A model generated the notes under the pieces. The model was not told the DNA's origin, did not search any database, and saw only the letters and a list, made by a program, of their open reading frames with translations. A stretch of DNA of 64,000 nt from Microbacterium proteolyticum. Lineage in GTDB: Bacteria; Actinomycetota; Actinomycetes; Actinomycetales; Microbacteriaceae. The stretch covers positions 1,860,001 to 1,924,000 of the forward strand of contig NZ_JAUSZZ010000001.1 in the NCBI RefSeq assembly GCF_030818075.1, written 5' to 3'. The position numbers were made by a program, and so were the translations under genes. Shown piece by piece: positions 2,595 through 57,131 of the stretch (within the stretch, counting starts at the first letter, position 1; every line of letters begins with the position of its first letter).

Positions 2595-3800
2595 ATGCGC
2601 ACGGGATCCAACCTGCCCGCCGTGGGCGAATACAACCAGACCCTGGTGCTCGACCTCATCCGCCGCTCGCCCGAGGGTCTCAGCCGCGTCGAGCTGACCG
2701 CGCGGACGGGGCTGAGCGCGCAGACGCTGAGCAACGTCACGCGCCGCCTCGCCGACGAGGGGCTCATCGCCGAGGCCGGCAAGGTGATCTCCGGGCCGGG
2801 CAAACCGCGCACGCTGCTCAAGCTCGAGCCGAGTTCGCGTTTCGCGGTGGGCGTGCACCTCGACCCCGTCGTCGACACGGCCGTCGTCGTCGACATGGCC
2901 GGTGAGGTCGTGGCTCACGACGAGATCGACCGGGTGCAGGGCGCGAGCGCCGCCCAGCTCGTGGCCGGGGTGGGCGAGGCGGTGGATGCGATCGTGAAGC
3001 GCGCCGGCATCCCGCGTGCGCGCGTGCTCGGGGTGGGAGTCGCCGCCCCCGGTCCGTTCGATGCCCGCGGGGGACGCCTGCTGAACCCGCCGCTGCTCCC
3101 GCAGTGGCACCACGTCAACGTGCGCGAAGACCTGGGCGCGGTGACGGGTCTCCCGGTCATCGTCGAGAAGGACGTCACCGCCGCGATGGTCGGCGAGATG
3201 TGGTTCGACCGCTCCGACGTGCTCGCCGACGCGATGTTCCTGTACTACGGGGCCGGCGTCGGTCTGGGCGTCGCCATCTCGGGCTCGCCCGTCCGCGGTC
3301 GCACCGGCAACGCCGGGGGCATCGCGCATATCGTCGTGGACGCCCGCGGACCGCGATGCGAGTGCGGATCGCGGGGGTGTCTCGGCGTGTCCATCGAACC
3401 CCGGGCCCTGCTCGCGGAGGCCGGGTACGACGCGGTGTCGGGTTCCGACTCCCGTCCCGACCTCGACCGGCTGGTCGCCGACGCGCACGCCGGTCGCGAG
3501 CCGGCGGGCACGGTGCTGCGTCGCGCGGGGGAGCGGATCGCCCGCGCTCTCGTGGTGGCGAACAATCTGCTCGACGTCGACGAGGTCGTGCTGGGCGGCC
3601 CCGTCTGGGAGCGCCTGGCGGGCGTGTTGAGCGAGACGGTCGCCCGTCGCGTGTCGACCGATCCCGCGTCGACGTCGACCCGGGCGATCGTGGTGCGTCA
3701 CTCCCGTGTGGGTCCCGATGTCGCCGCCGTGGGCGCGGCGTGCCTCATGCTCGACGGTGCCTTCGCCGCACGACCCGCGCGCATGATGATCGCCATCTGA
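2595..3800 (+). CDS. ROK-family transcriptional regulator (NagC/XylR type)
   Basis: A 401-residue repressor with a winged-helix DNA-binding domain at about residues 12-75 (SRVELTARTGLSAQTLSNVTRRL) fused to a ROK sugar-sensing domain. The zinc-binding CECGSRGCLG motif is at about residues 254-263, and GxGVGLG and GNAGGIAH loops are present. ATG 2595 follows a GGACGGGGGG ribosome site; TACGCT near 2543 may be its -10 box. The gene lies just upstream of, and points toward, the ABC importer operon. The intervening 135 bp contain an AT-rich dyad over a good promoter, making this protein the likely repressor of the mannoside operon, released by a sugar or sugar phosphate. Confidence 0.92.
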   Translation: MRTGSNLPAVGEYNQTLVLDLIRRSPEGLSRVELTARTGLSAQTLSNVTRRLADEGLIAEAGKVISGPGKPRTLLKLEPSSRFAVGVHLDPVVDTAVVVDMAGEVVAHDEIDRVQGASAAQLVAGVGEAVDAIVKRAGIPRARVLGVGVAAPGPFDARGGRLLNPPLLPQWHHVNVREDLGAVTGLPVIVEKDVTAAMVGEMWFDRSDVLADAMFLYYGAGVGLGVAISGSPVRGRTGNAGGIAHIVVDARGPRCECGSRGCLGVSIEPRALLAEAGYDAVSGSDSRPDLDRLVADAHAGREPAGTVLRRAGERIARALVVANNLLDVDEVVLGGPVWERLAGVLSETVARRVSTDPASTSTRAIVVRHSRVGPDVAAVGAACLMLDGAFAARPARMMIAI

Positions 3801-36843: not shown

Positions 36844-36952
36844 CGGAACGCTCCAGGGGGGAGGGGGTGGAACCCGACGATCCTATCCGCGGCCGCCGAC
36901 GTGACCGCCCGGGCGCCCTCGCCGCATGGCGGAGCGGGTATACGCGCGCGAC

Positions 36953-52647: not shown

Positions 52648-53442
52648 ATGGACAGGACGAAGAAGCTCTGGGCCGCCGGCGCGACAGCGCTCGCTCTCGC
52701 TCTCGGAGCGGGAATCGCCGTTCCGGCGCACGCCGCTGACATCACGGGCGAGGTGAAGGTCACCATCGACCTCTCGTCCCGCAGCAAGACCGAGATCTCG
52801 GTGTGGACCAAGAACACGTCGTCGGTCCCGGCGTACGGCACGGCCAGCGTCTTCTACGAGCCCGCCGGGGTTCTGGTCGACTTCGGCCCGAAGCGGTACG
52901 CGCCCGGCGAGGTCTGGACGTGGACGCAGACGGCCCCCGGCCACGATTGCGGCGACTTCGACACCAGCACCGCGGTCGCGTTCGGCTCCGAGGATCGTGG
53001 CGGAGCGTCCGACTGGACCTCCGGCGAGCTCACCGTCGGCGACCCGCGGGTGACCATCATCGGCTGCGACACCCCGACGCCGACCCCGACGCCGACCGCT
53101 TCGCCCACGGCGACGCCGACGGCTTCGCCCACGGCGACGCCGACCGCGTCGCCCACGGCTTCGCCCTCGGCGACGCCGACCGCTTCGCCCACGGCGACGC
53201 CGACCGCATCGCCCACGGCGACGGCTTCGCCCACCGCGACGCCGACCGTCACCGCGTCCCCGGCGCCTTCGTCGTCCCCGACGGCCGGCGCGGCCGGCTC
53301 GTCGAACGCTCAGCCCGGTAAGGGCTCGCTGGCGGTCACCGGTATGTCCGGCGCCGCTCTGCTGCCGATCGCGCTGATCGCGGCGGGCGTGCTCGCCGTC
53401 GGTGCCGTGATCCTGCTGCTGCGTCGTCGCCGCTCGGTCTGA
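52648..53442 (+). CDS. LAxTG-anchored surface protein with TPTASP stalk
   Basis: A 264-residue secreted protein: signal peptide (1-29, ending AHA-A), a beta-rich domain of about 120 residues with cysteines near 108 and 138, a stalk of about 65 residues made of TPTA/SPTA repeats encoded by 15-18 bp DNA repeats (53075-53265), then LAVTG, a hydrophobic helix and RRRRS. This is a class E sortase sorting signal, like the other surface protein. ATG 52648 follows GGGGAAAC. A TAGGGT hexamer at 52565-52570 is the likely -10 box. The function of the head domain is unknown. Confidence 0.85.
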   Translation: MDRTKKLWAAGATALALALGAGIAVPAHAADITGEVKVTIDLSSRSKTEISVWTKNTSSVPAYGTASVFYEPAGVLVDFGPKRYAPGEVWTWTQTAPGHDCGDFDTSTAVAFGSEDRGGASDWTSGELTVGDPRVTIIGCDTPTPTPTPTASPTATPTASPTATPTASPTASPSATPTASPTATPTASPTATASPTATPTVTASPAPSSSPTAGAAGSSNAQPGKGSLAVTGMSGAALLPIALIAAGVLAVGAVILLLRRRRSV

Positions 53443-53453
53443 CGATCAATCTG

Positions 53454-53485
53454 AAGCGGGGCCGTTCGAAAGAACGGCCCCGCTT
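53454..53485 (+). terminator. Intrinsic terminator after the surface protein
   Basis: AAGCGGGGCCGTTC and GAACGGCCCCGCTT form a perfect 14-bp stem with a GAAA tetraloop, ending in CTTTCGTT. A smaller hairpin (AAACGGGA/TCCCGTTT) is at 53504-53523. The rest of 53524-53719 holds no gene. Confidence 0.9.
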
Positions 53486-53719
53486 TCGTTCGCCCCGATC
53501 AGGAAACGGGAATGATCCCGTTTCGCTTGCTGAGGGCGCTCGGCTCGGTGGCTCTCGCGCTGCTGCGCGTCGGTGTGCCGGTTCCTCCCCGATCGACGAC
53601 GCTCCGCCGCGCGCCGAAGAATGGGGTCGCGCGCGGCCCTGCACCTCGCGCGGTCGCGTGCGGGCCACGGCGATCGTTCGGCGCTCACCCTGTCGTGCGC
53701 CGGCGTCGGCGGTCCGATA

Positions 53720-53744
53720 TGGATGCCGGGCCACCCGGCATCCA
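53720..53744 (-). terminator. Hairpin after acs
   Basis: TGGATGCCGGG and CCCGGCATCCA form a perfect 11-bp stem with a 3-nt loop, 14 bp after the acs stop on the minus strand. Confidence 0.7.
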
Positions 53745-53758
53745 CACCCGGACCGAGG

Positions 53759-55728
<1,970 letters not shown>

Positions 55729-55884
55729 CGCGGCGCTCCTTCGCATCGTGCGACGCCCGCGTCGGTGCCCGGCGTCGTCATCCCGGTCACGCTATCGAGC
55801 GGCCCCGACGGCAGCCACCTCCGATAGTTGGCATCCGGAATGTGGCGAAACAGGTGATATATCGGGATGCATGGGTGCGTCGAG

Positions 55885-55914
55885 TTGTTGTAACTAATTC
55901 TCACTGAGTAATCT
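55885..55914 (+). promoter_or_regulatory. Promoter of the 6C RNA
   Basis: TTGTTG (55885-55890) and TAATCT (55909-55914) are 18 bp apart in an AT-rich island. Transcription should start near 55921. Confidence 0.75.
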
Positions 55915-55920
55915 GGGCAC

Positions 55921-56030
55921 GCCCGAACATCGCTTCCGGCGCTGCGTCCGGGGGGAGCCCCCCAATATTCCTCCGGCGCATGGCGGCATCCCTCGCCCCC
56001 CACTGACGGGATGCCGCCCCCTTCTTTTTC
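55921..56030 (+). ncRNA. 6C small RNA
   Basis: About 110 nt between its own promoter and terminator. It has two stem-loops, each with six cytosines in the loop, the defining feature of the actinobacterial 6C RNA. In hairpin 1, GCG and CCGGGGGGA (55944-55956, one bulge) pair with TTCCTCCGGCGC-like sequence ending at 55979; CCCCCC is at 55958-55963. In hairpin 2, GGCGGCATCCC (55982-55992) pairs perfectly with GGGATGCCGCC (56008-56018); CCCCCC is at 55996-56001. CCCTTCTTTTT follows as the terminator. In Mycobacterium this RNA also lies beside the tad/ssd region. It is known as a trans-acting regulator; targets here are unknown. Confidence 0.9.
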
Positions 56031-56147
56031 CGCCCTCGCGGCGTGCTCTCCGAGCAATTCCTCCCCAGCCACCTGATCCGGTCGGTGGTCCACCGATTCC
56101 GTGATCCGGCCCGCGCCACGGCCCGCCTTCTCCCTACGGTCGTCGGC

Positions 56148-57131
56148 ATGTCCTCGATCGACCCGGTAGCACCGACCACCGCCGCCCCCACCGCGATGGC
56201 GTGGCGGGATCCGGCGCTGGCGTTCCTCCGTCCGTTCCTCGACGACCCCGCTGTCACCGATCTCTTCATCAACGGTGACAGCGGCCTCTTCGTCGACCGC
56301 GGGGAGGGTGCGCAACGCGTGCCCTCATGGCGCGCGAGCGAGGCCGAGGTGCGCCGGGTCGCCATCCGACTGATCGCGCTCGGCGGGCGCCACCTCGACG
56401 ACGCCTCGCCGTGCGTCGACGTACGCCTGGACCGCGGCGTACGGGTGCACGCCGTTCTCGCGCCCGTCGCAGCGAGGGGCACAACTGTATCGGTGCGCGT
56501 GCCGCGCGGGGACGCCCCCGATCTCGCCGAGCTGGAGCGATCGGGCATGCTCTCCGCGACGCAGCGTGCGCACCTGGAGCGCATGGTGGACCTCCGCGAG
56601 AACCTCCTCGTCACCGGTGCGACCGGTGCGGGGAAGACGACGCTGTTGACCGCCCTGCTCACGCGCGTGCCGACGACGGAGCGCATCATCACCGTCGAAG
56701 AAGTGGCCGAGCTGCGGCCTCGCCACCCGCATCACGTGACGCTCGAGGCCCGCCAGCCCAACATCGAGGGAGCCGGCGGCATCGGGCTCGCCCGGCTCGT
56801 CCGCGAGGCGCTGCGCATGCGGCCCGATCGGTTGATCGTCGGCGAGTGCCGGGGCGAGGAACTGCGAGAACTGCTCATGGCGCTCAACACCGGCCACGAC
56901 GGCGGCGCCGGCACGCTGCACGCGAGCGGCCTGACCGACGTGGCGGCCCGCCTCGAAGCGCTCGGGGCGCTCGCGGGAATGGATGCCGCGGCGACGGCCC
57001 GGCAGACCGCGAGCGCGATCGACGCGGTGGTGCACGTCGAGAGGGTCGGGGGGCGACGGCGGGTGTCCGGCTGGGGACGGCCGGTCGTGCGCGGTGGGCG
57101 GATCGCGATCGAGCCCGGGCTCTGGTCGTGA
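56148..57131 (+). CDS. Tad pilus secretion ATPase (TadA/CpaF family)
   Basis: A 327-residue VirB11-like ATPase that powers assembly of the Flp/Tad pilus. Walker A is GATGAGKTT (about 159-167), the Asp box EEVAELRPRHPHHVTLEARQPN (quoted in part: EEVAELRPRHPH) near 184, Walker B LIVGECRGEE near 228 and the His box NTGHDGGAGTLHA near 246. It lacks the long N-terminal domain of other CpaF proteins, as is typical for actinobacterial forms. A TACGGT hexamer ends 7 nt before the ATG, a possible leaderless start. The CpaE/Ssd-like gene that usually comes first is missing. Confidence 0.92.
   Translation: MSSIDPVAPTTAAPTAMAWRDPALAFLRPFLDDPAVTDLFINGDSGLFVDRGEGAQRVPSWRASEAEVRRVAIRLIALGGRHLDDASPCVDVRLDRGVRVHAVLAPVAARGTTVSVRVPRGDAPDLAELERSGMLSATQRAHLERMVDLRENLLVTGATGAGKTTLLTALLTRVPTTERIITVEEVAELRPRHPHHVTLEARQPNIEGAGGIGLARLVREALRMRPDRLIVGECRGEELRELLMALNTGHDGGAGTLHASGLTDVAARLEALGALAGMDAAATARQTASAIDAVVHVERVGGRRRVSGWGRPVVRGGRIAIEPGLWS

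Follow-up and report, generated by a model that had tools for sequence, protein, structure and literature searches.

A conserved 6C RNA ortholog between acs and tadA in Microbacterium, with a putative PadR-type operator upstream of its promoter

The window, the whole 64,000-nt stretch of Microbacterium DNA analysed here, comes from a 3.77 Mb genome held in one contig, and the intergenic region that it carries between the divergent genes acs and tadA raises a question: does this region encode a member of the 6C family of small RNAs and, if so, how is such an RNA likely to act and to be controlled? The 6C RNA is described as widespread in actinobacteria (PMC4046766, PMC6582537). A complete 6C gene had been read at this place in the original prediction, made from the letters of the window, and a search of one open library returned no passage reporting 6C in Microbacterium. 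Based on the results given below, this Microbacterium gene is almost certainly orthologous to that of the 6C RNA of other actinobacteria (B11 in mycobacteria), and we assign a probability of about 0.82 to the reading that joins this membership with a mechanism of pairing through the C-rich loops. It is a real, conserved gene of a known family, and as such a modest surprise: an ordinary family member that is mostly missed by the standard RNA model in Microbacterium. The features discussed are collected in Table 1.

Table 1. Features of the 6C locus and of the related PadR operon; positions are those of the window unless another sequence is named.
Feature	Position	Strand	Remarks
acs (acetyl-CoA synthetase)	53759..55746	-	divergent neighbour, over three frames (ORFs)
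GATATATC palindrome, putative PadR-type operator	55856..55863	.	centre ~61 nt before predicted 6C start
-35 element TTGTTG	55885..55890	+	from sequence; spacer 18 nt
-10 element TAATCT	55909..55914	+	from sequence; TAnnnT kept in relatives
6C gene	55921..56030	+	between divergent acs and tadA; predicted transcript ~110 nt, start inferred from -10
5' leader hairpin GCC.GAA(N6)UUC.GGC	55921..55940	+	MFE
Hairpin 1	55943..55980	+	MFE; C6-run loop
C6 run, loop 1	55958..55963	+	unpaired p 0.99-1.0
Hairpin 2, also the terminator stem	55982..56018	+	MFE; C6-run loop
C6 run, loop 2	55996..56001	+	unpaired p 1.0
U-rich terminator tail	56022..56029	+	sequence TTCTTTTT
tadA-like ATPase	56148..57131	+	downstream neighbour; Pfam T2SSE 2.7e-42
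DUF4097-PadR operon	L104 1501-3005 = own genome C1:398627-400131		two GATATATC sites before operon

When the window was scanned at the Rfam cut-offs, only tRNA and SRP RNA were returned and no 6C, because the 6C model (RF01066) scores 34.6 bits at 55943-56022 and its cut-off, which is a detection threshold and no anatomical feature, stands at 47 bits. The search with this model that had been proposed as a check gave an alignment that spans both C-loop hairpins but remains below the cut-off. With RF01066 nothing was found in the window's own genome at E ≤ 1e-3, and a scan at the Rfam cut-off of 13 relatives' loci (136.5 kb), picked from the 47 described below, gave 6C in 0 of 13. Among 98 genomes, the window's own included, 14 had a match at E ≤ 1e-3 and 8 had one above the cut-off; within the genus there were five matches at E ≤ 1e-3 in 59 genomes, one of 51.7 bits (G013, above the cut-off) and the others of 46.2-41.1 bits. 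All five sit between Acs and TadA, as the window gene does, so that the positional case is independent of the window's own score. Rfam's next-best match at this place, the alphaproteobacterial sRNA ar7 (RF02342, 18.8 bits), was rejected as being at chance level: it is far below its cut-off of 60, has an E-value of 0.17 and bears the name of another phylum. It is thus through orthology and structure, with a sub-threshold score from Rfam itself, that the proposed 6C identity is supported.

In its architecture the gene is like the 6C RNA of RF01066 (B11; cgb_03605 of Corynebacterium glutamicum), which has two hairpins with six-C loops, the last of them being the terminator. It is also like M. marinum B11, which was probed and forms three stem-loops with loops 2 and 3 C-rich (PMC12395582), and like the C. 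glutamicum 6C, which is about 100 nt long and reaches further on its 5' side than the Rfam model (PMC4046766). Unlike the 6C of RF01066, it scores below the threshold and has a G6 of its own in the 5' arm of hairpin 1, and it differs from known 6C genes in having a putative PadR-type site before the promoter and acs as its other neighbour. The Xanthomonas sRNA sX13 acts via C-rich loops. That RNA, from an unrelated phylum, is likened here by description only, as one with "C-rich loops" (PMC3771888).

The two stem-loops with six-cytosine loops were correctly recognized in the original prediction, both CCCCCC runs being unpaired in the predicted fold, whereas the 5' hairpin ahead of them had been overlooked. 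An intrinsic terminator is likewise present (hairpin 2 followed by TTCTTTTT), but not as a separate element, since hairpin 2 is itself the terminator; a simple terminator scan did not list this combination. The 110-nt strand has a minimum free energy of -52.7 kcal/mol, compared with a shuffle mean of -38.89 (sd 3.47, n=200; z -3.98), and 0/200 shuffles fold as well. A self-complementary stretch is found at 55950-55963, where GGGGGG lies within hairpin 1 two bases ahead of CCCCCC; it is present in most of the window's lineage and in none of the other lineage of the alignment described below. Sequestration of loop 1 by this adjacent G6 was considered and rejected, as the forced alternative hairpin is 5.5 kcal/mol worse (37 C).

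The predicted -35/-10 promoter is present as TTGTTG and TAATCT. A TAnnnT hexamer lies 14-15 nt 5' of the leader motif CCGAAC[AT]T in all rows having that motif, and of 20 relatives shown from the window's lineage, 15 have GAGTTG at about the position of the -35 element, as counted by eye. A consensus promoter scan of 55700-56200 found none, the 6C promoter being too weak for such a scan. No PafBC-type damage promoter was seen by eye. In one relative (L191, reverse strand), the leader hairpin sequence appears by eye twice in tandem upstream of 6C.

Conservation was measured in 47 loci out of 80 found through TadA, for which the leader motif and both neighbours were required; 46 of these are titled Microbacterium and one (L020) Microbacteriaceae only, while L031, L036, Agrococcus, Naasia and more distant loci fall outside the set. 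The closest of the TadA-found relatives, all titled Microbacterium, include Microbacterium sp. SORGH_AS_1204 and M. enclense, with a top identity of 85%. The order acs, pair of C-runs, tadA is present in all 47 measured loci and recurs in a few loci of Agrococcus, Naasia and other Microbacteriaceae, so the conserved position that had been proposed is supported within Microbacterium and extends to these few others. In mycobacteria, Rv3660c is presumably an ssd/TadZ-like gene. The B11 gene lies in the Rv3660-Rv3661 intergenic region (PMC12395582). On the other side of 6C in the window, the Pfam domains ACAS_N, AMP-binding and AMP-binding_C of acs each fall on a separate ORF (N-terminal, middle and C-terminal), which may reflect either a decayed gene or assembly indels. 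An Ms1 RNA beyond acs was also considered and dropped: 53430-53770 matched 4 of the 80 relatives' loci, over 31-58 nt, and the main text of PMC9130861 contains no mention of "microbacteri".

An alignment (A1) of 45 distinct sequences, the window included and three duplicates removed, indicates how the RNA has been conserved. Hairpin 1 is rewritten between lineages, and among its loop C columns four are invariant and two nearly so. All 5 scored inner pairs of this hairpin show two-sided change somewhere among the 45 sequences, with 84% of cells paired. Two-sided changes amount to 69 cells as compared with 32.7 in shuffles (0/500 as high), in a test that kinship among the sequences inflates; the number of pairs with such change (5) is unremarkable against the same shuffles (178/500), and slid controls come near on this measure (61 and 57 cells, 5 pairs). 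The paired-cell share, by comparison, is 96% and drops to 40-56% once the pairing is slid. In hairpin 2, 10 of the 11 scored pairs never vary, and in the 5' hairpin the four scored pairs are formed in 45/45 sequences and are nearly invariant; as these two hairpins hardly vary, neither offers covariation support. Full-length folds leave both C-runs open in 45/45 sequences and in 45/45 form a hairpin whose loop precedes nt 20, and 34-nt 5' pieces folded alone take other shapes in some relatives.

A genus model (R1, effective number 1.52) built from this alignment gives 102.6 bits on the window, which is among its training sequences. It has one match per genome in 49 of the 59 genus genomes, the five matched by Rfam included, and this figure is a census rather than an independent test because the window and at least one other sequence (G037/L049) belong to the training set. 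Of the 10 genomes without an R1 match, four are less than 90% complete, and the other six show no hairpin 2 pattern within 1.5 kb before tadA. Since the standard model finds 6C in only 5 of the 59 genomes, the gene is probably missing from many Microbacterium annotations. At the Rfam 6C positions of other-family loci, R1 matched 9/9 at E ≤ 1 and 3/9 at E ≤ 0.01, with E-values from 4.7e-4 (L004) to 0.45 (L001) and one match (L007) confined to hairpin 2; similar scores are reached by some loci that Rfam does not match (e.g. L087, 29.1 bits), and this cross-family matching lends weak support to 6C membership.

The control of 6C's own synthesis receives little comment in the 6C literature covered here, and a concrete site together with a regulator would make this control directly testable. 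A candidate for such a site is the palindrome GATATATC, which occurs as a single copy in the window (0.03 expected). It was found in 45 of the 47 relatives' loci (in L016 as AATATATC) and is absent in two, and it lies 66-69 nt upstream of the CCGAAC leader in 43 loci and 78-79 nt upstream in two. The laboratory strain M. testaceum StLB037 (L027) has both the gene and the site. What these loci share is a TadA similar to that of the window. When the sample was widened to the 49 genus genomes having a 6C match, 25 have GATATATC at 6C, from which we take it to be the marker of a lineage; with 24 genomes lacking the site at 6C, it was rejected as a feature of the whole genus. In six of the 49 genomes, of which two have the site and four lack it, hairpin 2 was unmatched and the model hit was used to fix the place.

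Other copies of the palindrome would fit a PadR-family regulator. The window's own genome contains 7 copies, compared with 1 for a reversed control: one at 6C, two before a DUF4097-PadR operon, one before a second PadR gene, and one each upstream of a GntR-ABC operon, upstream of a subtilase gene and within a long frame resembling relA by eye. Fifteen further genomes contain 100 copies (5 for the control). Among 30 genus loci compared, 27 have two copies before the DUF4097-PadR operon, at a spacing of 26-31 nt, and one has a single copy; the remaining two have none, one of them (L115) being a shorter locus. The first PadR protein was matched in 39/39 genomes, and in 37 of them the E-value was at most 1.1e-63. 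Binding to the promoter of their own gene is common among PadR regulators, and a site near -61 is where a class I activator would sit, a position so far upstream being unusual for a repressor. We tentatively propose, at somewhat below even odds, that in a large Microbacterium lineage a PadR-family regulator reading GATATATC controls 6C, in which case the regulator would bind at 6C and may activate it there. If this is true, a small PadR regulon would have 6C as its RNA arm. No report of PadR control of 6C, or of a PadR operator of the GATATATC type, was found among the papers listed from the one open library searched.

As the palindrome lies between two divergent genes, it might serve acs rather than 6C, an explanation that competes with PadR control of 6C only. 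A conserved inverted motif, ACTACCnCCGATAGT with its variants, lies on the acs side at about 55814-55834 and is possibly part of the acs control region; the GATAGT motif on this side occurs in 43 of 48 rows, the window among them. The distance from GATAGT to GATATATC is 30-35 nt in 36 of the 42 loci having both motifs, and two loci (L042 and L053) keep this distance and not that to 6C, as would be expected of a site serving acs. Three observations stand against this. First, over the same 45 loci, which as relatives are not independent of each other, the distance of GATATATC varies with an sd of only 2.4 nt to the 6C leader compared with 17.3 nt to the aligned Acs position. Second, six loci in which GATAGT is 43-67 nt off still have the palindrome 66-69 nt from 6C. 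Third, the shift in the two exceptions amounts to roughly one helical turn. A role in acs control is therefore unlikely, though it keeps an appreciable chance.

Two other explanations would deny the transcript a role as a separate RNA. Because it is on the same strand as tadA, and because Rfam gives 6C the type label Cis-reg, the region could be viewed as acting in cis on the tad operon, as its leader or attenuator. We consider this very improbable, as the distance from the leader to the aligned TadA position ranges between 285 and 740 nt (sd 119, 45 loci), hairpin 2 resembles a strong terminator, and the 6C of C. glutamicum and mycobacteria is described as a separate RNA of about 93-100 nt (PMC4046766, PMC12395582). 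That the hairpins are mere terminators of stray transcription between acs and tadA, as hairpin 2 with its U-rich tail and the nearness of tadA downstream might suggest, is hardly credible given that a terminator requires neither the conserved promoter-like hexamer and 5' hairpin nor a C-run kept inside a hairpin whose stem is rewritten, and that expressed 6C orthologs are known (PMC4046766, PMC12395582).

A separate 6C RNA thus remains the preferred reading, and for such an RNA work in mycobacteria suggests a mechanism: base-pairing of the C loops to G-rich ribosome sites, demonstrated for B11 of M. abscessus and M. marinum (PMC10470900, PMC12395582). In an M. abscessus B11 mutant, the raised genes are enriched for ribosome sites complementary to B11, and on the eccB4 leader either C-rich loop of B11 suffices (PMC10470900). 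In M. marinum it is loop 3, the terminator loop, that does the pairing and is required for repression, and the targets of B11 reportedly vary among mycobacterial species (PMC12395582). By analogy, a housekeeping-type promoter would produce a three-hairpin transcript of about 110 nt, in which the two C6 loops would stay single-stranded and would most likely base-pair to G-runs that lie in or close to the ribosome sites of several unlinked mRNAs, repressing them, while the last hairpin would double as the transcription end. Sequence, conserved structure, single copy where found, neighbourhood and open loops were computed here, and pairing and repression are carried over to Microbacterium from the mycobacterial work. 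Since the Microbacterium RNA has the mycobacterial plan and open loops, the same mechanism is the best inference, and given 6C membership it very probably applies.

The pilus and acs genes had been named as near candidate targets, and target prediction with the two CCCCCC loops had been suggested. When both loops were compared with 16 regions that had been chosen by hand from genes of the window, alternative starts among them (two of the regions begin elsewhere than at a start codon, and one is 2 nt off), the best duplex energy was -17.4 kcal/mol, which is inside the 5% point of -18.8 for random 40-mers from the window (median -10.5), and the longest G run was 5, ahead of the DUF4244 gene of the tad locus. 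With energies within the random range and G runs no longer than 5, acs and tad are not supported as 6C targets, and no target was established. In the window's own genome the pattern G6-N4-9-ATG has 89 matches compared with 33 for the reversed pattern (both strands, overlaps counted), one of them being the reverse strand of 6C; such an excess is expected from purine-rich ribosome sites and so is no evidence of targeting.

Another of the 89 matches, outside the window, belongs to a gene (G000:C1:1930478, reverse strand; L216 1648-2481, reverse strand) that contains a 15-nt perfect complement of the hairpin 2 arm and loop. The complement falls on the start codon of this gene, whose protein matches nothing in Pfam and has a membrane-like N-terminus. 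In 0 of the 6 orthologs shown was the 15-mer kept in the 120 nt before the match, the nearest having a G5 run, and this gene is a candidate target only.

Within the window, three frames of at least 80 aa have a G6 run ahead of them, with starts at ATG 2595, GTG 36867 and TTG 55144. The first belongs to a ROK-family regulator gene (2595-3800, forward strand) that has GGGGGG just ahead of its ATG; it was rejected as a conserved target, since among the 18 loci shown the window has a run of 6, its two nearest relatives have runs of 5 and 4, and the remaining 15 have runs of 2-4. The TTG at 55144 falls inside the acs region, and the run at 36867 (forward strand) stands before the GTG, a putative start, of a 482-aa frame.
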